Shown here piece after piece: positions 4,446 through 59,612 of a stretch of 64,000 nt of DNA. The notes under the pieces were generated by a model that saw only the letters and a program-made list of their open reading frames with translations, was not told the origin of the DNA and ran no database searches. Positions within the stretch are counted from its first letter, which is position 1. Each line of letters opens with the position of its first letter. The stretch lies in NCBI RefSeq assembly GCF_000063445.1, contig NC_009464.1, positions 1,364,001 to 1,428,000 of the forward strand. The letters run 5' to 3'. Source of the DNA: Methanocella arvoryzae MRE50. GTDB taxonomy: Archaea > Halobacteriota > Methanocellia > Methanocellales > Methanocellaceae. Position numbers and translations under genes: made by a program.

Positions 4446-4856
4446 CTATTTCCAGGCCTTCTCCTTGTTGCCTTTGAAGTATGCCTGCTGCATCAGGGTG
4501 ACCGGATCCAGGACCGGGCCGTCGCACTTCTCGATCTTGACCGGCAGGTTCTTGTACTTCGGGCTGCCTGTGCTCTCCGTTTCAGGGGTCACGACGATGT
4601 TCGCCCACACGCCGCGGACGACCCAGACCTCGCCCTTCTGCTGGGACGAAGCTTTCCTGGCCCGGAGCACGACGCTGTCCCCGAACTCGTTGGTGATCCT
4701 GACGAACCAGGGCCTGCCGAGGGCTTTGAAGTCCTCGGGGTTGATCTCGCAGTACGAGGCTTCTCTGGTGTACCCGTCGGTGAACTTGTTGCCGCCCTTG
4801 ATGATGGCTCCCTGGTAGACCGTGGAACCGGTGTTGAGTAAGACGTCCATTGCCAT
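4446..4856 (-). CDS. fmdD: Formylmethanofuran dehydrogenase subunit D
   Basis: This 136-residue protein is the small molybdopterin-dinucleotide-binding subunit, equivalent to the C-terminal domain of larger molybdopterin oxidoreductases. It starts MDVLLNTGSTVYQG and has the CEINPEDFKALG and GDSVVLRA segments expected of that fold. It lies 3 bases after fmdB. The complex reduces CO2 to formylmethanofuran in the first step of methanogenesis. Whether it is the Mo (fmd) or W (fwd) isozyme cannot be read from the protein; the Mo-rich neighbourhood favours fmd. Confidence 0.9.
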   Translation of the reverse strand: MAMDVLLNTGSTVYQGAIIKGGNKFTDGYTREASYCEINPEDFKALGRPWFVRITNEFGDSVVLRARKASSQQKGEVWVVRGVWANIVVTPETESTGSPKYKNLPVKIEKCDGPVLDPVTLMQQAYFKGNKEKAWK

Positions 4857-4859
4857 AAC

Positions 4860-6227
4860 TTACTGCCTCCTTGCTTCCTTCTTCTGCTTGACCCTCTCGA
4901 ACAGCTGCCTGAGCGTGTCCTCGTTGGACCTGGTGAAGTCGAACGGCGGAGTCGTAAAGCTGCGGGCGTAGATGGGCACGTTATCCATGCGGTAGAAGGT
5001 GCCTTCGCACTCCATGCCATCCAGCACTCCGGGCATTACGGCGTCGCTGACGAACTGCATCGGCCCGGGAGCGATCTCGATGGATGCCACGGGGATCTCA
5101 GCCAGGCGCTCGACTGCCTTCTTGGGCAGGTGGCCACCCAGGTCTGCGCACATGCAGAGCACTGCGTCGACCTCGCCCCTGTAAAGGGCGTCGACCGTCG
5201 AATACTCGCCGGGCTGGTACCGGGGGATGCCTCTCGAGAAGTCTACTGCGAACGGGAAGCCGTGCTGCCAGGACAGTACCTGGTTGAAGCCGGCGACGTT
5301 GCAGTGGCCTCTGTTAGCCGAGATGACGAACTTGGTGATCTTGTTGCACTCCTGGGTCACACGCATTGCGATTGAGGCATTGTAGTGCTTGCCGTGGCTG
5401 CTGGCGATGCCCAGTCCGACCCAGATCACGCCGAACTTGCAGGCCTTGATCATGTCGATGAACTGTACGAACTGCTCCCTCGGGATGCCAGTGGTCTCGT
5501 AGGTCGACTCGTGGGGTTCCTGGCCCCTCATCATGGTCAGGAGCGCGTCCATGAACTCGTAGTCGGTGCCGGGCCTGAGCTGAATGTGCAGGTCAGCCTG
5601 CGCAGCGGTCGGGCTCCTCCTCGGGTCCACGACGATCATCTTGCGGCCCTTGAAGCCCTGCTCCGTCCAGAAGCCTCTCTGGTAGTGGGAGTGGCGGCTC
5701 ATGTGCCTCGGGTGAGAGTCAGCAGGGTTACAGCCCCAGTAAATGTTGAGATCAGCCCTGTTCCTGCATTCGCCAAGGGTGGCGGAAACACAGCCTGCGT
5801 CCTGCAGGCCCATGACTGTCGGACCGTGGCAGATCGTGGCGTTGCCGTCTACGAGGGCGCCCAGGTACTCGGCCATCGCGATGCCCACGGACATGGCCTC
5901 GGTGGAGGTTTCGCTGCCCATGAATAACAGTGGCCTCTTCGCGTTGACCAGCATCTCTGCGGTGTAGTCAAGCACCGCGTCCCAGTCGGCCTCCTGGCCG
6001 TGCAGCAGAGGCTTGGTAATCCTGTGGTGGCTCCGCAGCTCCTGGAATTTGGCGTCACCCATCAGGCAGGCGTTCTTGGTTACTACCTTATCGTCGGTCA
6101 GCTCGATGACGATATCGTCGCACGACATGCCGCAGACAGGGCAGGTCACATCAGTACACGTGATCTTTTTCCCGTCAGTGACGCTCGTGTCTTTTTTTAC
6201 GATGTTTTCGGAGATCACTCCATACAC
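4860..6227 (-). CDS. fmdB: Formylmethanofuran dehydrogenase subunit B (catalytic)
   Basis: This is the catalytic subunit that binds bis-MGD and one [4Fe-4S] cluster. Cluster cysteines are visible near residues 29, 32, 36 and 54 (CPVCGMSC, then NACLMG). The metal ligand is Cys133 in TICHGPTV; it is cysteine, not an in-frame TGA selenocysteine. The 455-residue length fits the family. The listed start is the upstream GTG; a GTG at 6182 would trim 15 unconserved residues. fmdD follows. Subunits A and C are not in this window, so they must come from another locus. Confidence 0.93.
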   Translation of the reverse strand: MYGVISENIVKKDTSVTDGKKITCTDVTCPVCGMSCDDIVIELTDDKVVTKNACLMGDAKFQELRSHHRITKPLLHGQEADWDAVLDYTAEMLVNAKRPLLFMGSETSTEAMSVGIAMAEYLGALVDGNATICHGPTVMGLQDAGCVSATLGECRNRADLNIYWGCNPADSHPRHMSRHSHYQRGFWTEQGFKGRKMIVVDPRRSPTAAQADLHIQLRPGTDYEFMDALLTMMRGQEPHESTYETTGIPREQFVQFIDMIKACKFGVIWVGLGIASSHGKHYNASIAMRVTQECNKITKFVISANRGHCNVAGFNQVLSWQHGFPFAVDFSRGIPRYQPGEYSTVDALYRGEVDAVLCMCADLGGHLPKKAVERLAEIPVASIEIAPGPMQFVSDAVMPGVLDGMECEGTFYRMDNVPIYARSFTTPPFDFTRSNEDTLRQLFERVKQKKEARRQ

Positions 6228-6559
6228 ACTCCATACGTTAGCTGTTGATTAATGCGATCATGGCCCGGTTGTCGTATCCGCCGGCGGAGGTTGCGGCTCC
6301 ATCCAGGGCCTCCGGCAGCCGGGTCCATAATGTCGTTCTCGAAAACGAGCTTAAATAGTTATCTCAACAAATTACGTATGCTTAATATGTTAACATTATG
6401 TGATAACAAATAGGTGTACAAATATTATATAATTAGCATTATACACGTTCGTCAACGCAATTTATAGAACATTTAAATATTATAAAAATAAATTGTCCTG
6501 ACTGGAGAAGATTTATTATCTGCCGTCGCTTTAACAAAAGTGTTAAACAGGTGACCTGA
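6228..6559. promoter_or_regulatory. Divergent fmdB / tfx promoter region
   Basis: This 332-bp spacer has no gene. On the minus strand a TATA-like CTATTTAAGC lies at about 6347-6356, near an imperfect palindrome TCGTTCTCGAAAACGA (6333-6348), consistent with an fmdB promoter. On the plus strand A+T-rich TTTAAATATTATAAAA (about 6472-6487) suits tfx. TATGTTAACATTA lies near 6387. AGGTGA at 6549-6554 is the tfx ribosome site. Tfx of Methanothermobacter is known to bind next to the fmd promoter, so autoregulation from here is a reasonable inference. Confidence 0.6.
6531..6546 (+). promoter_or_regulatory. TTAACA-AAAG-TGTTAA inverted repeat before tfx
   Basis: A perfect 6-bp-arm inverted repeat lies between the predicted tfx TATA region and its ribosome site. 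Its TTAACAAAAG core also occurs upstream of modA (read on the minus strand at 19646-19659). It may be an operator for a Mo-responsive regulator or for Tfx itself. Confidence 0.4.
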
Positions 6560-48685: not shown

Positions 48686-48901
48686 AGGTAAGTTCCTGGC
48701 ACCACCCTTTTTATTTTTAGGTTCTTCTCCGAATCTCGGATAATAATTCATGGCGGTAAGCGAAAGGTATAAACAATCGTTAACTTTTTTGCGGCCTCGC
48801 CCATCGCATCCGGCCATCGGACGGCCATCGGACACGGAAAGTTTTAAAGGAAAACAGCCAGTATTCCTTATCAAAACTTGTATTTTATGGACGGGACCCT
48901 A

Positions 48902-49654
48902 ATGCTCAGTATTGAAAACTTAACCGTCGAGGTGGATGACAAGCGCATCCTCAACGGCGTCAACATGTCCATCCGCGAGGGCGAGACCCACGCCCTGTTC
49001 GGGCCCAACGGGACAGGCAAGAGCTCGCTTCTCTTCACCATCGCAGGAATTCCGAAGTACAAGGTTACTGATGGAAAGATCTACTACAAGCGAAAGGATA
49101 TCACCGACGCGCCCATGGACGAGAGGGCGAAGCTCGGGATCGGCATCCTGTTCCAGCACCCGCCAGTCATCCGGGGCGTCAAGCTCAGGGACATGGTCAG
49201 GATTAGCATGGAGTCGAGAAACCCTGGCAAGAAGATCACGGACGAGGAGATCGCCGGCCTCGCCAGAAAGCTGAACCTCGAGTCCTTCCTGGACCGGGAC
49301 GTCAACTCAGGATTCTCGGGCGGCGAAATCAAGCGCTCGGAACTTTTGCAATTGCTGGCTCAGCGCCCGGAGTTTGTCATGCTGGACGAGCCGGACAGCG
49401 GCGTCGACCTGGTCAACATCGGCCTCGTCGGCAACACGATCAACGAGTTGCTGGAGAAAGAGAAGAAGACTATGGAACGGACCAAATCAGGGTTGATCAT
49501 CACCCACTTCGGCAACATCCTGGACTTCGTCAAGGCTGACAAGGCCTACGTGATGATGAAGGGTAAGATGCTCTGCCAGGGCAACCCGGTCGAGCTGCTC
49601 GACGACATCAGGAAGAACGGTTACGGAGAGTGCATGTCATGCATGAGGAGATAA
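48902..49654 (+). CDS. sufC: SufC-like Fe-S assembly ATPase (SmsC type)
   Basis: The ABC ATPase has Walker A GPNGTGKSS, GILFQHPPVIRGV (Q-loop), the SufC-specific signature GFSGGEIKRSELLQ, Walker B EFVMLDEPDSGVD, and ITHFGNILD. The ATG at 48902 gives MLSIENLTVEVDDKRI; ATG 48887 and TTG 48878 are possible. It overlaps the SufB-like gene. The two-gene form corresponds to the minimal SMS system described in archaea. Confidence 0.93.
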   Translation: MLSIENLTVEVDDKRILNGVNMSIREGETHALFGPNGTGKSSLLFTIAGIPKYKVTDGKIYYKRKDITDAPMDERAKLGIGILFQHPPVIRGVKLRDMVRISMESRNPGKKITDEEIAGLARKLNLESFLDRDVNSGFSGGEIKRSELLQLLAQRPEFVMLDEPDSGVDLVNIGLVGNTINELLEKEKKTMERTKSGLIITHFGNILDFVKADKAYVMMKGKMLCQGNPVELLDDIRKNGYGECMSCMRR

Positions 49655-50859
49655 TCAGGCGCGCCCAGGCGGCCATCAACAAGAAGCCGGCCTACGGCAA
49701 CGACATCGACCTGGAGGCGTACCTGGAGCAGGTCCCGCCCAGGGAGAAGATCACCTCGCTGGGAGAGCTCGCGAAAGGGGTCCAGGAGAGGGCTATCCAT
49801 GCCGGCGTGGACGCATCGATGAAAGACAGGTCCGGCTCGTTCTTCATGCACGACCAGACCGTCATCCACACGACCACCATGCAGGAAGGGCTGGAGATCA
49901 TGGACATCAACGACGCCCTGAAAAAGTACGACTGGCTCCAGGACTACTATTTCAAACTGGTACAGCCCGACCAGGATAAATTTACTGCATACAGCGCCAC
50001 CCACCCGGTCGCCGGGTACTTCCTCAGAGCCCTGCCGGGAGCTAAGATCGTGTTCCCGCTGCAGGCGTGCCTGTACATGGGCCGGGAAGGCATGATCCAG
50101 AACGTGCACAACATCATCATCGCCGAGGAGGGCAGCGAATTCCACATTATCTCAGGCTGTACTTCTGATACGCACGTCACCAGCGGCCTGCACGTCGGCA
50201 TCTCCGAGTTCTACGTCAAGGACAACGCCAAGCTGACCTTCACCATGGTCCACAACTGGGCGGAGAAAGTCGTCGTCCGCCCCCGGTCTGCGACTAAGAT
50301 GGGCAAGAATGCGGTGTTTATGAGCAACTACGTCTGCATGACGCCCGTAAAGGACATCCAGATGTACCCGGGCACAGTCATGGAAGGCGAGAACAGCATC
50401 GCCCGGTACAACACCATCGTTTACGCGTCACCCGGCTCCCACTTTGACCTCGGCTCAAAAGCCATTCTCAAGGCTAAGGGCTGCAGAGCAGAACTCGTCG
50501 CGAGGACCATCGCCAAGGACGGCGGCTATGTCGCCTCCCGCGGCCTCATCCAGGGCGACGTGCCCGACACGAAAGCGCATCTGGAGTGCCACGGCCTCCT
50601 TCTCGGCAGCGGCGGCGTCATCTACGCAGTGCCAGAACTGCTCGGCCACGTCCCGGGCGTCGACCTCAGCCACGAGGCGGCAGTGGGCAAGATCGCCGAA
50701 GAGGAGATCCAGTACCTCATGTCCCGCGGCGTCGACGCCGACACTGCGACGGCGCTGATCGTCAGAGGCTTCCTCGACGTGGACGTCAAGGGCTTACCGC
50801 CACAGCTCCAGGCCGAGATGAAGAGGACGATTGAGTTAGGCGAAAAGTCGATGATGTAA
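49639..50859 (+). CDS. sufB: SufB/SufD-like Fe-S scaffold (SmsB type)
   Basis: The ~406-residue SufBD core protein has a beta-helix region (GMIQNVHNIIIAEEGSEFHIISGC, RYNTIVYASPGSHFDLGSKAIL) and the C-terminal EIQYLMSRGVDADTATALIVRGFL typical of SufB/D. It starts inside the sufC end (ATG at 49639 behind GGAG). With SufC it assembles Fe-S clusters. A terminator follows at 50863. Confidence 0.93.
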   Translation: MHEEIIRRAQAAINKKPAYGNDIDLEAYLEQVPPREKITSLGELAKGVQERAIHAGVDASMKDRSGSFFMHDQTVIHTTTMQEGLEIMDINDALKKYDWLQDYYFKLVQPDQDKFTAYSATHPVAGYFLRALPGAKIVFPLQACLYMGREGMIQNVHNIIIAEEGSEFHIISGCTSDTHVTSGLHVGISEFYVKDNAKLTFTMVHNWAEKVVVRPRSATKMGKNAVFMSNYVCMTPVKDIQMYPGTVMEGENSIARYNTIVYASPGSHFDLGSKAILKAKGCRAELVARTIAKDGGYVASRGLIQGDVPDTKAHLECHGLLLGSGGVIYAVPELLGHVPGVDLSHEAAVGKIAEEEIQYLMSRGVDADTATALIVRGFLDVDVKGLPPQLQAEMKRTIELGEKSMM

Positions 50860-51081: not shown

Positions 51082-52134
51082 TTACCAGTACACATTAATC
51101 TTCTTCACTGTCCCAGAGGGATAGTAGAAGGGCCCGATCTCGGCCTTCTTTGCATTTAGTACATCGCTTCGGGACTTGAGGACTAAGGCCATCTGATTGA
51201 GCTCCATTCCGGGCTCGGCGATGCCCTGGTTGTAGTTCTTCGCCAGCCGGTTGTACTCTTTCAGTTCATGAATGTAGTCGAGGTACTTTTGCCGGTATCC
51301 TGAATAGAAGGAGTAGTCAGTACCCGCTGCATAGTCGAGATCGATCTCGTTGAACTCCCTGCCTTCGACCACGTAGGCGATCCGGTCTCCCGTGGAGCCC
51401 TCGTAGATAGAGGATGCATCGACATATACCAGGCCTTTGTCTACCGTGTTGAAGATGTTCAGGCCGTGGCCCATGTCAGGCGCTCCAGGCGGAGAGAGAA
51501 GGTTGCCCGAGCCGTCGTCGTAGATGCTGTAGTCGATGCTGTCGCCGTAGAACTCGACACCGACGAAACCGGCCTTGATCCCTTGTGCTTCGGCGTTGTC
51601 GTGCAGCCTCCTGGCGAAGTCGGCGCAGGTCCACCCTGGGCTCACGTACTTCATCGAGCTGGTGTCGTCGGCTTTCAGGAACCGGACGAGCTCGTCGTAT
51701 GTCGGATCCACCGCAGAGCGGTTGTTGGCCAGGACGACCTGGACACCGGTGGTGTTCTGGACAGGCAGCGTCACGTACGTAATGGTCGTCCGGGCGTCGA
51801 TGTAGCCGATGAGGAGGATGAGGGCGGCCAGAAGGGACATTGCGATGATGGCCAGAGCTAGAACTTTGATGCCCAGGAAAGACCAGCGGATGATCGCCGG
51901 ACGACTGGTGCTCTGGTTATCCGGCACCTCTGCCTGAGAGCTCGCGGCCGCCATACCCGGCTTCTCGACGGTGCCTGCCTCGACCTGCTGTTTGTAGCTC
52001 GACAGGCCAGGGCATTTGTGATCCTGCGGACGGCGGTGCCTCTCGCAGAAGACCATGCCGCAGTACTTGCACTTATACAGCAGCAGGTCACTGCCGCATT
52101 CGTGGCAGGAATCGCTCCCCTTACTTGACCCCAT
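51082..52134 (-). CDS. AN1-type zinc finger, membrane anchor and transglutaminase-like domain
   Basis: Residues 10-41 match the AN1 zinc finger spacing (C10, C13, C22, C25, C30, H33, H39, C41). One membrane segment follows at ~85-112. The C-terminal part has the Cys-His-Asp arrangement of transglutaminase-like proteases: C170 in GWTCADFA, H223 in MGHGLNIF, D239 in YVDAS. The finger should be cytoplasmic and the catalytic-like domain outside. A TATA box at 52161-52169 leaves almost no leader, so the mRNA is probably leaderless. The function is unknown. Confidence 0.75.
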   Translation of the reverse strand: MGSSKGSDSCHECGSDLLLYKCKYCGMVFCERHRRPQDHKCPGLSSYKQQVEAGTVEKPGMAAASSQAEVPDNQSTSRPAIIRWSFLGIKVLALAIIAMSLLAALILLIGYIDARTTITYVTLPVQNTTGVQVVLANNRSAVDPTYDELVRFLKADDTSSMKYVSPGWTCADFARRLHDNAEAQGIKAGFVGVEFYGDSIDYSIYDDGSGNLLSPPGAPDMGHGLNIFNTVDKGLVYVDASSIYEGSTGDRIAYVVEGREFNEIDLDYAAGTDYSFYSGYRQKYLDYIHELKEYNRLAKNYNQGIAEPGMELNQMALVLKSRSDVLNAKKAEIGPFYYPSGTVKKINVYW

Positions 52135-52281: not shown

Positions 52282-52950
52282 TTAGCCGATCATTATGCCC
52301 TCAATTCTGACCCGCACGCCCTCTTTGGTGCGGCTCATGAAGATCACCATGCCGCTGTGCCGCCACTGGAGCATGCACCGCCGGGGCAGGTACCAGTAGC
52401 GCATGCCGATCTGGAGCTCTATGCCAGGATCTTTGACGATGCCCTCGTAGGCCTGTGCTGAGTAGTACCCGAGGTTTTTCACGGGCTTACCCCGGCTGGC
52501 CAGCGGACCGGTGACACACCACACTATGACGCCGGTCCGGGGATCAACGTCCATGACCACTCCGCTGTGTGTGACCGGGCAGCCGCACGACATGCCCAGC
52601 GGCCTGCCGATCAGTATGTCGCCTTTCTTAATCACCAGTTCCCGGGTAAGTATCGGGTTGTGGGGTATGATCGTTTCCCTCGGCCCGGGGTCTTCGGGAA
52701 AGGCGTCTAAGACAAAGTCGTACTCCCTGCCCAGCGAATCCTTGCCTGCGGCCACGAGGTTTGACGAGGGACACTCTCCGCACTGGCCCGAAGATCCTCT
52801 CGCTGTGGGTGCTCTGGTGATCTGGACGCAGCGTTTACGCTCACCCGGCTTCTGCTCGAGGATATGTGCGAACTCCTCGCAGGTCTTTGCCCCGCACAGG
52901 CCACAGTCGAGGCCTGGCAGTTCCATCTTTTCGACTATGTTGTCACTCAT
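52282..52950 (-). CDS. [4Fe-4S] protein of unknown function, end of ABC/GTPase/NifS operon
   Basis: The N terminus has C16-x2-C19-x4-C24-x16-C41 (GLDCGLCGAKTCEEFA), the [4Fe-4S] domain found in corrinoid Fe-S proteins and RnfB. Further cysteines occur in QCGECPSS and MSCGCPVTH. The C-terminal ~140 residues include KKGDILIGRPLGMSCGCP, which I cannot assign. ATG 52950 follows GAGGTGGAT; the upstream GTG 52962 is less likely. It starts 13 bases after the cysteine desulfurase stop. Confidence 0.75.
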   Translation of the reverse strand: MSDNIVEKMELPGLDCGLCGAKTCEEFAHILEQKPGERKRCVQITRAPTARGSSGQCGECPSSNLVAAGKDSLGREYDFVLDAFPEDPGPRETIIPHNPILTRELVIKKGDILIGRPLGMSCGCPVTHSGVVMDVDPRTGVIVWCVTGPLASRGKPVKNLGYYSAQAYEGIVKDPGIELQIGMRYWYLPRRCMLQWRHSGMVIFMSRTKEGVRVRIEGIMIG

Positions 52951-52963
52951 GTAATAATCCACC

Positions 52964-54127
52964 TCAGATTAGCGATGATATGGACTTCAGCGATCTTGCG
53001 GCCTTCGGCAGCACTTCCAGCAGGTAGTCGATCTCCTGGTCGGTGTTAAACCGCCCGGGTGTGATTCGCAGGGCCCCTCTAGCCTCCAGTGGGTTCAGGC
53101 CGATGGCGGCGAGCACGTGGGAGTGGGTGCCCGTGCCGGACGAGCAGGCCGAGCCGGTGGAGACGGCGATGCCTTTCTCGTCCAGCCCCAGCAGCAGCTT
53201 GATCGCTTCGCCCTCGTAGCCGTGGAAGCCCAGGTTCACGTTGTTGGGGAGCCGGAGCGACCTGTGGCCGTTCAGGTAGGCGGCCTCAATCTCTCCCAGC
53301 ACCGTATCGATGATCCTGTCTCGCATGCGGGCGAGCCTGCTGCTCTCGCCCTCCATCGACCCGACGACCAGCTCTGCGGCGGTAGCGAAGCCGACGATGG
53401 CAGGCACGTTCTCGGTGCTGCTGCGCAGGCCGTGCTCGTGGCCGCCGCCGTGCTGCCATGCCTCGATGCTGACTCCGTCCCCGACGACCAGCGCTCCGAC
53501 GCCCTTGGGGCCGTAAATTTTGTGGGCGTTGAGGGTGATCAGGTCGAAGGCTCCTGCGTCCACCGGGATTTTACCGAAAGACTGGCAGGCATCTGTATGG
53601 AACGGCACACCCTTCTCCCGGCAGATGGCGCTGATCTCCTCGACAGGCTGGACGGTGCCGATCTCGTTGTTGGCATGCATCACTGAAACAAGGATGGTGT
53701 CGGGCCGGACAGCCCCGGCCACGTCATCCGGGTTTACCAGCCCCGCCCGATCCACCGGGAGATACGTGACCTCGAAGCCCTGCCGTTCCAGCCACTGGCA
53801 GGAGTGGAGGATGCAGTCGTGCTCTATGGCGGTAGTAATGATATGCCTGCCTCTGCGGCGGCTGGCGTATGCCACGCCTTTGAGCGCCAGGTTGTTCGAT
53901 TCTGTGCCTCCCGAGGTGAAGACGACGGACTCCGGCCTGGCGCCTATAGTTCCTGCCAGCCTCTCCCGGGCTTCCTCGACAGCATCCCGGGCTGCTCCCC
54001 CGAAGGAGTGCAGGCTGGACGGGTTGCCGTAAGCCTCCATAAAGTAGGGAGCCATAGCTTCGAAAACCCGGGGGTCCAGCCGGGTGGTCGCAGAGTTGTC
54101 GAGGTAGATCTTCCCCGTCTCACTCAC
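52964..54127 (-). CDS. nifS: Cysteine desulfurase (NifS/IscS type), second copy
   Basis: This PLP enzyme takes sulfur from cysteine. The 387-residue protein has [29 protein letters not shown], the PLP lysine in [13 protein letters not shown], and the active cysteine in [11 protein letters not shown]. It overlaps the GTPase gene by 8 bp and precedes the [4Fe-4S] protein. The other copy at 58446 pairs with IscU; this one has no IscU neighbour and probably serves the ABC/GTPase operon. Confidence 0.93.
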
Positions 54128-54821
54128 CCCGGTAGAACATGTCGCCCTCCAGGGGGCGGAGGACGCCGAAGTGCTGTCTCCAGCCGATCTCCTTCTTGCC
54201 CACGCAGATGGTGCAGGTCCCCACGGGCGGATTACCTTTCAGGTACATGGGGTGCTTGAGCTCGGGAGATGCCTTGATGCTCTTGAGGATGCGGTCGACG
54301 CCGATGCCGTAGAGCGCGTTGGTTTCCACCACGTTCATGCCCGGGGAGGTCTCGAGGATTCGGGCCCGGAAAACTTCTCGCTCCGCCTGCGATACCAGGT
54401 CGATCTTGGTCACCACGGCCAGATCGGCAAGGGATAACATCGGGCCTATCTTCCTGGGCAGGTTCATGCCGCTGGTCGCCTCCAGCACGACTATGCCCAG
54501 TGCTCCCTCTATGTAGGGTGAGCACCGGAAGCACAGGCCGGCGGTCTCCACGATGAGGAAATCGGCTTGCTCTTCCTCGGCCCATTCCACTGCATCGCCG
54601 AGCACCATGACGTTGCAGTGGTCGGGGCACAGTTCGCCGGAGTAGACCTTTTTCACCGGTATGCCGAACTCGGCCTTGAACAGCCCGTCCTCGTCCGCGT
54701 ACTGGACGTCTACCTTGAGGTACGCCAGTTTGAAGCCTTCCTTAAGCAGCTTCCTGATCACGTGCTTCAGCACTGTAGTCTTGCCGCTTGTAGGCGGCCC
54801 GGCACAGATCACGCCCCTCAT
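54120..54821 (-). CDS. HypB/UreG-like SIMIBI GTPase with extra CxxC motifs
   Basis: The 233-residue protein has P-loop [43 protein letters not shown], and the base-recognition TKIDL, as in HypB and UreG GTPases that deliver nickel. CxxC pairs at LCFRC and GTCTIC and the CPDHC could bind metal or a cluster. It overlaps the ABC ATPase by 4 bp and NifS by 8 bp. I infer a metallocluster-insertion role; its target is unknown. Confidence 0.8.
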
Positions 54822-55627
54822 GCTCCCTCCACGTACCCGATTGCCCGCATCCGCCGGGCCATCTCACCGGTTGTGAGCCTCCCGCCTGCGCGGACGATGC
54901 TGCGGAAATCGAGCAGCAGGTCATCGATCTTCTTGATCTCCCCTACGACAGCCTTCTCCTCCTCGTCAGTGACGATAAGCTCTCGCATGGCACCGTTGCC
55001 TATGACGATGCGGTAGTCTGACATCAGAGCGATGCGGGGGTCATGGGTGACGAAGACGAAGATTTTACGGTATTTTCGCAGCAGCTCGAGCGCTTTCGTC
55101 CGGTGGATGCCGGCGTTCTCGATCTCGTCCAGCAGGATGATCGGAGCGTTGCCGATGATCACGGCGTCCGCGATGAGAAGCGACCGAGTTTGCCCTCCCG
55201 AGAGCTCGGTCATCGCGCTCTGCAGGTTAAGCGGCTCGCCGGTCAACTGGTTGGCGAACTCCAGTGTTTCCTTCACCAGCTGTTCAGGGTTCCCGCTCTG
55301 GCGCACCCCGGCGTGGATACGCAGGAACTCGCCTACGGGCAGGTCCGATAAAAAGTTGGTGTGCTGTGAGATGAGCGCAATCGGATTTCGGGAAGGGTCC
55401 GACAGGAATTCCTCCGGCCGGGCCTGCCCGTTGATCAGTATCTTTCGCCCCGACGGCGTATCTCCGTCGGCAAACAGCTCGAGGTCGTTGATCAGCGTCG
55501 TCTTGCCGCAGCCGGTCGGCCCGACGATGCTCACGACGTCTCCCATGCGGAACTCAACGGCCGACAACGGCTCGGGCTTTCCATCTTTTCCCGTGCCGCC
55601 GCGAATTGTAATTGTATCTATGTCCAT
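54818..55627 (-). CDS. Soluble ABC ATPase without permease partner
   Basis: Walker A is GPTGCGKTTLI, the Q-loop is ALISQHTNFL, the signature is ELSGGQTRSLLIA, Walker B is IILLDEIENAG, and the switch is VTHDP. The 269-residue protein has no membrane segment and no permease gene is nearby, so it is more like SufC or AtwA-type soluble ATPases than a transporter. It is the first gene of a four-gene overlapping operon. GGAGGAT precedes the start; a TATA-like GTTAATATACAAA lies near 55725-55737. Confidence 0.82.
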   Translation of the reverse strand: MDIDTITIRGGTGKDGKPEPLSAVEFRMGDVVSIVGPTGCGKTTLINDLELFADGDTPSGRKILINGQARPEEFLSDPSRNPIALISQHTNFLSDLPVGEFLRIHAGVRQSGNPEQLVKETLEFANQLTGEPLNLQSAMTELSGGQTRSLLIADAVIIGNAPIILLDEIENAGIHRTKALELLRKYRKIFVFVTHDPRIALMSDYRIVIGNGAMRELIVTDEEEKAVVGEIKKIDDLLLDFRSIVRAGGRLTTGEMARRMRAIGYVEGA

Positions 55628-55941: not shown

Positions 55942-56217
55942 TCAGCCACCAGATACAGGCGGAAAGAGAGCTATCTCATCGCCGTCTTTGATCTTTGCGG
56001 TGAGGCCTTCCTCGCCTTTAACTGTCTGGCCGTTGTGCAGCACGTTCACGTACGGTTTCAACGCTCCATCCTGAAACAGCAGTGGCTCAATATTGGGGTA
56101 CTTTGTCACCAGGCCTTTGATCACGGCCTTTACACTATCGCCCTCAGGCGAGATCTCGACTTCTTTCTGTTTCGTAGCTTCCCGGAAGTTGGCGAACAGC
56201 TTGACTTTGATCTTCAT
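55942..56217 (-). CDS. MoaD/ThiS-like sulfur carrier protein
   Basis: The ~91-residue ubiquitin-fold protein starts MKIKVKLFANFREATKQ and ends in DGDEIALFPPVSGG; the terminal Gly-Gly is adenylated and thiocarboxylated by E1-like enzymes. It may supply sulfur for molybdopterin or tRNA thiolation, or act as a SAMP-type modifier. ATG 56217 follows GGAGAA. It lies 22 bases after the ThiF-like gene. Confidence 0.9.
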   Translation of the reverse strand: MKIKVKLFANFREATKQKEVEISPEGDSVKAVIKGLVTKYPNIEPLLFQDGALKPYVNVLHNGQTVKGEEGLTAKIKDGDEIALFPPVSGG

Positions 56218-56239
56218 GACAGATTCTCCGTGACAGTGA

Positions 56240-56983
56240 TTATTTGCCTCCGCATGCGGGGCACTTCGGGTTCTTGCATACTTTAATCTCGTGGAAGTCC
56301 ATATATTCTCCGTCGTACACCAGCAGGCGCCCCTCCAGCGGGGATCCGAAGCCTGCTGCAACTTTTACAGCTTCAGTGGCCTGCAGCGTGGCCAGTACGC
56401 CGGGCGTGGCGCCGAGCACCGGGAACACTTCTTTAGGAGGCGCATGGGGGAAGATGCATTCCAGACACGGCGTTTTGCCGGGCACTATGGTGGTGATACG
56501 GCCTTCCAGTCCCCAGATAGACGCGTGTATGAACGGTATGTTATATTTCAGGGCGGCCCGGTTCAGCAGGAACCTGGTCGGGAAATTGTCCATCGCGTCA
56601 AGGATGAGATCGTGACCTTTCGTCAGGTCGTATACGTTGTTCTCGCTGATCGTTCCCTCGAACCCTTCCACCTCGATCTGCGGGTTGATCTGCCGCAGCT
56701 TTTCCAGGGCGCTCCTGATCTTGGGATCGCCCACGTTCTTATCCCAGTGCAGTATCTGCCGGTTCAGGTTGGAAAGGTCGACGACGTCCATGTCGGCGAT
56801 GGTGATATGGCCGAAGCCCGCCACAGCCAGGTAAGTGGCCAGCGGGCTGCCCAGGCCTCCGGCCCCCGCTACGAAGACTCTGGTGTTTTTCAGCTTCTTC
56901 TGTCCGGCTTCGCCGAAACCGCGTATGAGCATCTGGCGGTGATAGCGCTTACGATCGTAGTCAGTTAGCTCCTTGTCAGTCAT
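56240..56983 (-). CDS. E1-like adenylyltransferase (ThiF/MoeB/UbaA)
   Basis: The 247-residue protein has the nucleotide loop VFVAGAGGLGSPLATYLA, DVVDLSNLNRQILH, and two zinc CxxC pairs (CLEC, CPAC). It lacks a C-terminal rhodanese domain. It should activate the Gly-Gly end of the adjacent MoaD-like protein. Archaea often use one such enzyme for several carriers. Confidence 0.92.
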   Translation of the reverse strand: MTDKELTDYDRKRYHRQMLIRGFGEAGQKKLKNTRVFVAGAGGLGSPLATYLAVAGFGHITIADMDVVDLSNLNRQILHWDKNVGDPKIRSALEKLRQINPQIEVEGFEGTISENNVYDLTKGHDLILDAMDNFPTRFLLNRAALKYNIPFIHASIWGLEGRITTIVPGKTPCLECIFPHAPPKEVFPVLGATPGVLATLQATEAVKVAAGFGSPLEGRLLVYDGEYMDFHEIKVCKNPKCPACGGK

Positions 56984-57058
56984 AGTTCTCCTCGCTGATT
57001 GCGATTAGAATGGTAATTAGTATCAAGTATATCAGGCCCGTGATCGAGGCAAAGGATG

Positions 57059-57988
57059 TCATAACCGGAGGCCGCCCAGGTAATGGGCCGGCCCCGGGTG
57101 GACCTGATCGATGAAACGGGTATCGAACACCTCAGGCAGCTCTGGCAGCCGGGAGATATACCCGAGCCGGTGGAGGGTGCCGGCAAAGCGCATGGCCGAG
57201 TCTATGTAGGGGCCGGGCAACGAGGCACAGTACTTCGGAGAGATCCCGTAGCATTCGAGCACGTAGGCCTCATCTACTATGCCGGTCACCCTGGCTACAA
57301 TACGGGCGGCCGACCGGGGGTCGTTCCGGATCAGCTCACAGGCGTCCTCGTGGGACCTGAGAAATGCGGCCAGGGTCGGCCCCCTGTCCCGCAGGCTGCC
57401 TGTCGCGACAATGCCGTAGCTGGGGTTCCAGGGCCAGAGCAGGTGCGAGGGCAGGATGATCTTTCCCCCTGCGAAGCGACGGGCCCCTGCGGCGAGCGCC
57501 GGCGTGCCTGCAGCCGCCTCAATCTCCCCGTCCTGCAGCGCCGCGAGCACAAAATCGGCCCAGCCGTAGTTGCGGACTTCGATGTCGAAGCCGGCCCTGG
57601 CGACGAGGTCCCGGATGATGATGTCGTGGATGGAGCCTCTTGCAGGGCAGCCGATCACGCCGCCGTCAAACTGCGCAAGCGCTTCATTTTCACTGCCCAG
57701 TTCCGCCGCTGATCGGTATTTCCCGGTGGCCACGAGCACCGTGCCTTCAATATGGCCGCCGGCGACACACCGGATGTCAAGGCCTTTGCTGATGCCGATC
57801 ATAGCCGGTGGCAAGCCTATGTAAGCGAGGTCGATCTCGCCCCCTGAAAGGGCTTTGACCAGATCGGGCCCGGTGGGAAAAAGCGTCCAGGATGCTTCTA
57901 TGCCGGCCTTTGTAAGGCTATCCCTGCCCATCAGGATAAATGCGGTATGATAAAAAGTGGAGAGGTGGCCTATCCGCAGGTGTTCCAT
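57059..57988 (-). CDS. NMT1/SsuA-like substrate-binding-fold protein without signal peptide
   Basis: The 309-residue protein resembles nitrate/sulfonate/taurine-type binding proteins: RIGHLSTFYHTAFILMGRD, LVKALSGGEIDLAYIGLPPAM, VIGCPARGSIHDIIIRD. It starts directly with MEHLRIGH, so no signal peptide or lipobox is present, and no permease lies nearby. A cytoplasmic role, like that of THI5/NMT1-fold enzymes or a sulfur-compound binder, is more likely than transport. It lies between iscU and the ThiF-like gene. Confidence 0.78.
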   Translation of the reverse strand: MEHLRIGHLSTFYHTAFILMGRDSLTKAGIEASWTLFPTGPDLVKALSGGEIDLAYIGLPPAMIGISKGLDIRCVAGGHIEGTVLVATGKYRSAAELGSENEALAQFDGGVIGCPARGSIHDIIIRDLVARAGFDIEVRNYGWADFVLAALQDGEIEAAAGTPALAAGARRFAGGKIILPSHLLWPWNPSYGIVATGSLRDRGPTLAAFLRSHEDACELIRNDPRSAARIVARVTGIVDEAYVLECYGISPKYCASLPGPYIDSAMRFAGTLHRLGYISRLPELPEVFDTRFIDQVHPGPAHYLGGLRL

Positions 57989-58049
57989 AATATTTCAGGG
58001 CCGTCAGACCCCTCCGAGGCCGTCAGGCCTTCTATGTCTTATGACCTCG

Positions 58050-58427
58050 CTATTTCTTCGCCGCCTGCTTCTTGCGGTAGTCTTCGATTGCCGCAGTCAG
58101 CGCCTCGGCTGCCAGGTTCGAGCAGTGCATCTTCTGGGGCGGCAGGCCGTCCAGTTCCCTGGCCACGTCGTCCCGGGTGATCTTCAGGGCCTCGTCCAGC
58201 GTCTTGCCCTTGGCCATGACGGTGACCATGCTGCTGGTCGCGATGGCCGCTCCGCAGCCGAACGTCTTGAACTTGATGTCCTCGATGCGGTCGTCCTTGA
58301 TCTTGAGGTAGATGGTCATCATGTCCCCGCAGACTGGGTTGCCGACGGTCCCGACGCCGTCGGCGTCGGGGATCTCCCCCACGTTCTGGGGGTTGGAAAA
58401 GTGGGTCATTACCTTGGGCGAATACAT
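58050..58427 (-). CDS. iscU: IscU-like Fe-S scaffold (MisU type)
   Basis: The 125-residue protein has the three cluster cysteines in NPVCGDMM, FGCGAAIATSSM and MHCSNLAAEAL. It builds [Fe-S] clusters with the adjacent cysteine desulfurase, 18 bases upstream. The two-gene form fits the minimal MIS system. Confidence 0.95.
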   Translation of the reverse strand: MYSPKVMTHFSNPQNVGEIPDADGVGTVGNPVCGDMMTIYLKIKDDRIEDIKFKTFGCGAAIATSSMVTVMAKGKTLDEALKITRDDVARELDGLPPQKMHCSNLAAEALTAAIEDYRKKQAAKK

Positions 58428-58445
58428 AACAGTAACCTCGCTATC

Positions 58446-59612
58446 TTATTTTTTATACAGGGGCGACATCTCCCGCAGCCGGGATACGATGCCCGGCAGA
58501 GTCTCGATCACGTAGTCGATCTCTTCCTCGGTGGTGTACTTCGAGTTGGTCATCCTGAGAGAGCCGTGAGCGGTCTCCGGGTCCAGCCCGCAGGACAGCA
58601 ACACATGGGACGCCTCCAGCTTTTTCGACGAGCACGCGGAGCCCGTGGAGACTTCAATGCCCTTCATGTCGAGAAGTAGTACCATGGACTCCCCTTCCAC
58701 GAAGCTGTAGCTGATGTTAACGTTATTGGGTGATCTTTTTGTCCTGGAGCCGTTGAGCCGGCTGTGGTCGATCTTGAGCAGCCCGTCCATGAGCCTGTCC
58801 CGCAACCGTGTCATCTGCTCGACGTTCCGGTCGAAGTCCCTTACAGCCAGTTCGCAGGCTTTGCCCATGCCGACGATGCCCGCCACATTCTCGGTGCCGC
58901 TGCGGATGCCCTTCTCGTGTCCGCCGCCGTAGACCAGCGACCTCACCGGAGTGCCCCTGCGCAGGTACAGGACGCCGACACCTTTGGGGCCGTGTACCTT
59001 GTGGCTGGACAGGGAGAGCATGTCGACGCCCAGATCGTCCACGTTCACCGGCACTTTGCCGAAAGCCTGGACTGCGTCGGTGTGGAAGTATATGTCCTTC
59101 TCTTTCGCGATTTTGCCGATCTCCCTGATGGGCTGGATGGTCCCGATCTCGTTGTTGACATGCATGACGGTGATCAGAGTCGTCTCGGGAGTGATCGCCT
59201 CTTCGAGCTCGTCCAGCCTGAGAATGCCTTCCTGGTCGACCGGCACGTAGGTGACCTTGAACCCGTTTTTTTCGAGGTGCCTGCATGTCTCGATCACTGC
59301 CGGGTGCTCGATGGCGGAGGTGATGATGTGGTTGCCCTTCTTTTTGTTAGCCAGGGCTCCGCCTATGATCGCGATATTATCCGATTCGGTGCCGCCGGAG
59401 GTAAAGATGATCTCCGCAGGAGAAGCGCCTATGGCGTCTGCCACCCGGGCACGGGCAGCCTCAACCGCCTCCCGGGCTTCCCTGCCGGCTGAATGGAGGC
59501 TCGACGGGTTGCCGTACTTTTCCGTGAAATACGGAAGCATGGCGCTGACCACTTCGTCGCTGACCTTTGTGGTCGCGCTGTTGTCTAAATATACCCTCTT
59601 CATAGTCATCAT
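58446..59612 (-). CDS. iscS: Cysteine desulfurase paired with IscU (MisS type)
   Basis: The 388-residue protein has [28 protein letters not shown], the PLP lysine in LSSHKVHGPKGVG, and the active cysteine in [14 protein letters not shown] 59603 (MKRVYLD) is an equally likely start. A TATA box CTTTAAATAATC near 59646-59657 leaves a short leader. It is about 50% like the copy at 52964 by eye. Confidence 0.94.
   Translation of the reverse strand: MMTMKRVYLDNSATTKVSDEVVSAMLPYFTEKYGNPSSLHSAGREAREAVEAARARVADAIGASPAEIIFTSGGTESDNIAIIGGALANKKKGNHIITSAIEHPAVIETCRHLEKNGFKVTYVPVDQEGILRLDELEEAITPETTLITVMHVNNEIGTIQPIREIGKIAKEKDIYFHTDAVQAFGKVPVNVDDLGVDMLSLSSHKVHGPKGVGVLYLRRGTPVRSLVYGGGHEKGIRSGTENVAGIVGMGKACELAVRDFDRNVEQMTRLRDRLMDGLLKIDHSRLNGSRTKRSPNNVNISYSFVEGESMVLLLDMKGIEVSTGSACSSKKLEASHVLLSCGLDPETAHGSLRMTNSKYTTEEEIDYVIETLPGIVSRLREMSPLYKK

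Follow-up and report, generated by a model that had tools for sequence, protein, structure and literature searches.

Which task is carried out by a soluble ABC ATPase, a HypB-like GTPase, a cysteine desulfurase and an iron-sulfur (Fe-S) protein that are encoded side by side? This question is raised by a four-gene operon of Methanocella arvoryzae MRE50, located at 1.42 Mb on the single 3,179,916-base contig (NC_009464.1) of this genome. The window, that is the whole stretch of DNA analyzed here, comprises 64,000 nucleotides (positions 1,364,001 to 1,428,000 of the contig), and plain coordinates refer to it. The operon is real and conserved, and it had partly been noticed before. Its ABC ATPase, GTPase and Fe-S genes form a conserved core unit. 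We tentatively propose, giving it somewhat less than an even chance, that the operon encodes an ATP/GTP-driven module which delivers sulfur, and perhaps metal or electrons, to thiol-forming enzymes. This proposal draws on operon structure, conservation, motifs and genomic associations, from which we infer each biochemical step.

The Four-Gene Operon

All four genes are encoded on the minus strand and overlap or nearly touch each other:

54818..55627, minus strand: ABC ATPase gene, 269 amino acids; soluble ATPase without a permease partner
54120..54821, minus strand: SIMIBI GTPase gene of the HypB/UreG class, 233 amino acids; closest solved relatives are HypB and UreG
52964..54127, minus strand: NifS/IscS-type cysteine desulfurase gene, 387 amino acids; optional operon member
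52282..52962, minus strand: Fe-S protein gene, 226 amino acids; N-terminal [4Fe-4S] domain and C-terminal beta domain

The ABC ATPase and GTPase genes overlap by 4 bp and the GTPase and NifS genes by 8 bp. The Fe-S gene has a GTG start at 52962, 1 bp past NifS; an alternative ATG at 52950 would leave a 13-base gap. This arrangement had been described in a first-pass annotation and is borne out by the coordinates. The families were confirmed by Pfam, with matches to ABC_tran (6e-15) for the ATPase, cobW/HypB/UreG (6e-15) for the GTPase, Aminotran_5 (8e-76) for NifS and FeS PF04060 (3e-07) for the Fe-S protein.

Conservation and Distribution

A scan for relatives, using the GTPase alone as query and one genome per species, gave 80 loci with 67–85% identity; individual loci are cited below by number (L004 and the like). 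The ABC gene is present in nearly all of these about 80 relatives, directly upstream of the GTPase gene, and the Fe-S gene in 74. This co-occurrence is far beyond chance and supports the earlier view that the genes are one functional unit. NifS is placed between the GTPase and Fe-S genes in 38 of the 74 bacterial-type loci holding both, and none was seen within methanogen-type loci. The other Methanocella (L004) has the trio without NifS, although the AN1 and SufBC genes come next in the same order. Since NifS is found in about half of the loci and is missing from L004, the core consists of three genes and NifS is optional. The expectation that all four genes travel together therefore held for the trio and failed for the desulfurase.

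By identity, the operon of the window groups with the bacterial-type proteins (67–85%) and not with the methanogen type (~50–58%). Carriers include Planctomycetota, Omnitrophota, Acidobacteriota, Bacteroidota (Bacteroidales), Gallionellaceae (Gallionella) and Chloroflexota, furthermore Thermodesulfobacteriota, Myxococcota, Thermoplasmata, Micrarchaeota and Freyarchaeota, about ten phyla overall, many of these carriers being metagenome bins. The spread is patchy: the class to which one Bacteroidota carrier belongs was represented by 247 genomes, and this carrier itself was the only positive one.

A third type of locus was observed in Fusobacterium and several methanogens. Here, a DUF1858/SBP_bac_6 (SBP6) protein, which looks cytosolic, replaces the Fe-S protein and is followed by the GTPase and ABC genes; the GTPase is roughly 37–42% identical.

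For the target of the system, the first-pass annotation had suggested carbon monoxide dehydrogenase/acetyl-CoA synthase (CODH/ACS) or another methanogen enzyme. For the version found in the window this is unsupported and CODH/ACS was rejected, because close relatives occur in about ten phyla, many of them without CODH/ACS; the ACS subunit CdhC was detected in 13 of 50 carrier genomes. Homocysteine synthase (COG1900/HcyBio) was rejected as a common bacterial target as well (6/50). [NiFe]-hydrogenase family matches are present in 41 of the 50, many of them weak since the family is broad, and absent in nine, mostly Bacteroidales. A link to mercury methylation, considered for its similar patchy spread, was likewise rejected, with HgcA above the cut-off in 5/50. 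Taken together, these counts yield no single target. The genome of M. arvoryzae itself encodes an HgcA above the cut-off (450 bits, G000:C1:805314-806255).

Two further ideas were discarded. PADLOC matches suggestive of anti-phage defence look like generic similarity of the ABC protein (mad3) and the desulfurase (DndA, SspA), partner genes not having been searched for. The idea of plasmid or phage cargo was backed by a single distant Fusobacterium record and by no phage.

The ABC ATPase and the Possibility of a Transporter

Walker A, the LSGGQ signature, Walker B and the H-loop are all conserved in the ABC ATPase. By sequence, the nearest relatives of the ABC domain are transport ATPases of the MacB/BceA/MJ0796 type, and sufC is not among its best 25 NCBIfam models. 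This raises the possibility that the ATPase is part of a transporter and that the Fe-S and GTPase genes are only adjacent, in line with the solute-binding proteins, SsuA-like ones among them, in the vicinity of some loci. Over 79 loci, the ATPase has no recurrent permease neighbor, as expected from the earlier description of an ATPase without permease; furthermore, the ABC-GTPase pairing is kept in the third type too, and the gene order is kept over about ten phyla. The transporter reading is largely refuted by this conservation and appears extremely improbable.

Putative Metal Sites in the GTPase and the Fe-S Protein

The GTPase matches solved HypB and UreG structures at E-values of 1e-7 to 6e-6 and shares with these nickel GTPases the P-loop SIMIBI fold. 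According to the alignment, C65 corresponds to the metal cysteine region of HypB, and C97/C100 fall beside the second HypB site. In contrast to HypB and UreG, it scores far under both equivalog cut-offs (55.9 bits vs. 121.2 for hypB, TIGR00073; 31.3 vs. 204.2 for ureG), contains an additional C203-x2-C206 motif and pairs with ABC and Fe-S genes instead of hydrogenase or urease genes. By score it does not qualify as a hydrogenase HypB; the HypB-like character with added CxxC motifs (C97-x2-C100 and C203-x2-C206) noticed earlier was confirmed. In an alignment of 39 relatives, including a 37%-identical Fusobacterium protein, C65 and H68 (C65-P-D-H68), C97, C100, C203 and C206 are invariant. The GTPase tree gives firm support solely for the pairing with the other Methanocella, the deeper order not being firmly supported.

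The Fe-S protein carries the motif C-x2-C-x4-C-x16-C (C20/C23/C28/C45), and at its N-terminus ~45 residues align with the large subunit of CFeSP (8e-6) and with RnfB (0.02), so that the CdhE/RnfB-type domain with further cysteines anticipated by the first reading is indeed present. The likeness to CdhE/AcsC and RnfB is limited to this [4Fe-4S] domain; it is followed by a beta domain that has its own Cys2His2 pattern, and a corrinoid domain is absent. In the predicted structure, 158 of 226 residues have a pLDDT of at least 90 and the beta domain is modeled with high confidence; a Foldseek search of the PDB gave no fold match below E 0.1 (best 0.11). The beta domain contains C128-x3-H132 and C196-x5-H202. 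Throughout 120 Fe-S sequences from both branches, these four residues as well as C20, C23, C28 and C45 are invariant apart from gaps. Judged from the sequence, C128, H132, C196 and H202 are candidates for a second metal or sulfur site.

These features would also fit the maturation of a metallocenter. Here, the GTPase would insert Ni or Zn, the Fe-S protein would serve as insertion platform for one enzyme, and NifS would give sulfide for a metal-sulfur site. Metal insertion with an unidentified target is the main rival to sulfur delivery, and we regard it as rather unlikely, if only by a limited degree. HypB and UreG being the nearest solved structures, the position of C65, C97 and C100 relative to the HypB sites, the invariant Cys2His2 pattern and the frequent hydrogenase-family matches argue for it, as do genes in the vicinity of the third type: hgcAB in L133, a hybrid cluster protein in L123 and, in Fusobacterium, a zinc-type ABC transporter. 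On the contrary, a single target enzyme is wanting (ACS, HgcA and HcyBio each being confined to a minority of carriers), the hydrogenase matches fail in nine carriers and are weak in many others, and the conserved neighbors hold no known metal enzyme but methanogenesis marker 16 (MMP16), a putative Fe-S protein.

The Desulfurase and Its Sulfur Context

NifS has the pyridoxal-phosphate fold type I and the catalytic cysteine loop of NifS/IscS desulfurases. It reaches 485 bits to FeS_nifS, under the equivalog cut-off of 530.75, and its catalytic Cys328 is invariant in 44 operon homologues. The assignment of a desulfurase to the operon is borne out by this, and the enzyme looks active from its sequence.

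The sulfur theme of the first reading was supported by cysteine-synthase, CysE and coenzyme M (CoM) neighbors. Cysteine-synthase-like genes, some of the cystathionine beta-synthase type, flank six bacterial-type loci (L017, L035, L057, L064, L072, and L076); their frequency in the carrier genomes (97 in 176 Mb) would predict 0.27, which corresponds to P ~4e-7, or ~2e-4 if the six are counted as four independent cases. CysE-like genes occur near the trio in L035, L064, and L072. In L045 the trio is directly followed by adenylylsulfate (APS) kinase (CysC) and CysD, in L013 MetQ and MetN-like genes lie upstream of it, and L041 contains a TauE-family gene. An Rrf2-family regulator is present at the operon in 32 loci; the best specific matches of the one tested were CymR and IscR, both below cut-off. 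A divergent Crp-type gene is found in 21 loci, mostly from Bacteroidota.

A soluble ABC ATPase, a desulfurase and an Fe-S protein recall SufBCD/SufS, and the IscR-like Rrf2 regulators at many loci would suit an additional general machinery for Fe-S cluster assembly, alongside ISC and SUF. The ATPase without permease together with a desulfurase is indeed shared with SUF. Nevertheless, the operon has no SufB/D homologue (no SUFBD_core), and a real SufCB pair (48878-50859) lies elsewhere in the window. Similarly, compared to ISC and NIF, a desulfurase is present and a NifU_N protein is absent from the operon, the IscU/IscS pair (58050-59612) being separate. The set is therefore distinct from ISC, NIF, and SUF, as had been claimed. 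Since both of these systems already flank the operon, the patchy spread is unlike that of a housekeeping system and NifS is missing from about half of the loci, a general assembly machine seems very unlikely.

The Methanogen-Type Trio and Coenzyme M

In the phylum of M. arvoryzae, a related GTPase is found in 81 of 295 genomes. The methanogen-type trio clusters with cysteate synthase (TIGR03844) and sulfopyruvate decarboxylase (ComDE) and is typically followed by MMP16 (TIGR03287, 517 bits for the one copy tested). Cysteate synthase is present in 73 of the 76 genomes with the methanogen-type (type A) GTPase, compared to 124 among all 295 (Fisher p 2.7e-31), and it lies 1.3–3.1 kb from the trio in 65 of the 73. 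These statistics contain no correction for kinship, although the genomes span many genera and several families. In the short archaeal loci, MMP16 is nearly always a direct neighbor of the trio (27 of 28); in L142, L147, and L149 the trio accompanies MMP16 and cysteate synthase is not nearby.

MMP16 has been reported as the main CoM synthase of Methanosarcina acetivorans (Chadwick et al., 2025, PMC12068725). In the same study, a figure legend remarks that genes for an ATPase, a GTPase binding Ni2+ and a COG2000 Fe-S protein frequently lie together with those of CoM biosynthesis, their role being unknown (PMC12068725). These are the same three kinds of genes beside the same neighbors, so this set is probably the methanogen-type trio. 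The three-gene core has thus already been sighted in methanogens, without a function. In contrast to the published set, the operon of the window belongs to the bacterial-type branch, includes a dedicated NifS, is separated from cysteate synthase by 1.4 Mb and is of a type common to bacteria showing no CoM link. New here are the branch beyond methanogens that carries a desulfurase, the cysteine-synthase neighbors of this branch, the third GTPase-ABC type and the conserved second Cys2His2 site.

The vicinity of MMP16 raises a different possibility, namely that the Fe-S protein is a source of low-potential electrons, which would be used to insert sulfur reductively (RCHO to RCH2SH) or in sulfite chemistry, with ATP hydrolysis serving to lower the potential. 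Its [4Fe-4S] domain is of the electron-transfer type of CdhE/RnfB, and the CoM synthase reaction needs two to four electrons, the donor of which is unknown; which sulfur species and how many electrons are used is described as unclear (PMC12068725). MMP16, however, carries its own ferredoxin domain (PMC12068725). Neither the desulfurase nor the HypB-like GTPase would be needed if the module were an electron donor driven by ATP and GTP. Furthermore, we know of no soluble ABC ATPase driving electron transfer outside the methyl-coenzyme M reductase activation complex. We consider this possibility distinctly unlikely.

A Possible Sulfur-Delivery Module

Since the core recurs beside genes for sulfur compounds, including CoM, the trio probably delivers sulfur or metal for thiol making. 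Sulfur would be supplied by the dedicated NifS in M. arvoryzae and elsewhere probably by a general desulfurase or as sulfide. The Fe-S protein, with its [4Fe-4S] and second Cys2His2 sites, may act as a carrier or scaffold from which a thiol-forming acceptor receives sulfur and probably also electrons. The HypB-like GTPase would load Ni or Zn at the second site or gate the hand-over there, and the soluble ABC ATPase might power a conformational step, by analogy to SufC acting on SufB. In methanogens, the acceptor would most likely be MMP16/ComF, which converts sulfoacetaldehyde to CoM; in the bacterial-type branch of the window operon, it may be another enzyme of cysteine or thiol metabolism. 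To our knowledge, no described Fe-S or sulfur-transfer system covers such a job.

Several observations weigh against sulfur delivery. Cysteate synthase occurs without the trio in 51 genomes, so the trio is not required for CoM synthesis. In M. arvoryzae the operon is contiguous with NifS inserted between GTPase and Fe-S genes, but it lies outside the CoM cluster, with MMP16 at 0.36 Mb and cysteate synthase at 2.85 Mb. Common regulation would explain the vicinity of NifS to cysteine synthase just as well as sulfur donation does, and the rarity of HcyBio means that a common bacterial acceptor is not pinpointed. Finally, no described function or biochemistry of the trio was found in the literature.

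An even broader view, which we hold to be rather unlikely, is that of a new class of sulfur-insertion machine, powered by ATP and GTP, metal-carrying and present in archaea and bacteria, of which one branch serves CoM synthase and the NifS branch a bacterial thiol step. If true, this machine would provide the sulfur and electrons whose donor is still missing for the final step of CoM biosynthesis.

The ABC-GTPase-Fe-S module beside CoM synthase is a concrete, transferable and genetically testable candidate for sulfur or electron supply, and its NifS-bearing relative in many bacteria without CoM link suggests a more general job, probably the supply of sulfur or metal.

Third-Type Loci and Neighboring Genes

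The loci of the third type, which suggest a GTPase-ABC engine with exchangeable substrate proteins, are:

L084:4823-7807: SBP6, GTPase, and ABC genes
L121, L123, L125, L133: the same gene set
L126: GTPase-ABC genes without an SBP6 match

In L133, HgcA (4803-6247, 453 bits) and HgcB are located ~1–2 kb from the SBP6-GTPase-ABC operon, and a cluster-mate of this HgcA is similarly placed in L121 (11305-12432). Just upstream of the L123 operon, a hybrid cluster protein (809 bits, 4645-6264) is encoded on the opposite strand.

Near the archaeal trio, a radical SAM protein of ~270–335 amino acids recurs, the L147 copy matching BioB/LipS2-like models below cut-off:

L147:3957-4946
L146:10933-11940
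L148:9195-10202
L142:15127-15930
L119:6748-7551

In the window, the operon is flanked by the following genes outside it, those from 55942 to 59612 being upstream:

48878-50859: SufCB pair; 48878-49654 scores at the sufC cut-off
51082-52134: AN1-type zinc-finger protein, the finger being followed by a hydrophobic segment; located between SufCB and the operon, in the same order in L004
55942..56983, minus strand: MoaD/SAMP1-like sulfur carrier and MoeB/ThiF-like activating enzyme
57059..57988, minus strand: SsuA-like (aliphatic sulfonate) protein of the solute-binding fold; signal peptide not evident
58050-58427 and 58446-59612, minus strand: IscU and IscS/NifS pair, a separate scaffold and desulfurase

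The SsuA-like protein is possibly a cytosolic sulfonate-handling protein. A relation to the Sao selenoprotein system was rejected, being just a weak match of this protein, and the review of that system gives no link to the gene set. L120, L146, and L148 likewise have SsuA-like proteins with 47–53% identity next to the trio, and ThiF-like genes recur near it in L119, L120, L146, and L148. An IscU/IscS pair is found near the trio in L131 too, and in L146 the LarE sulfur transferase, ThiF, and IscS lie near it.

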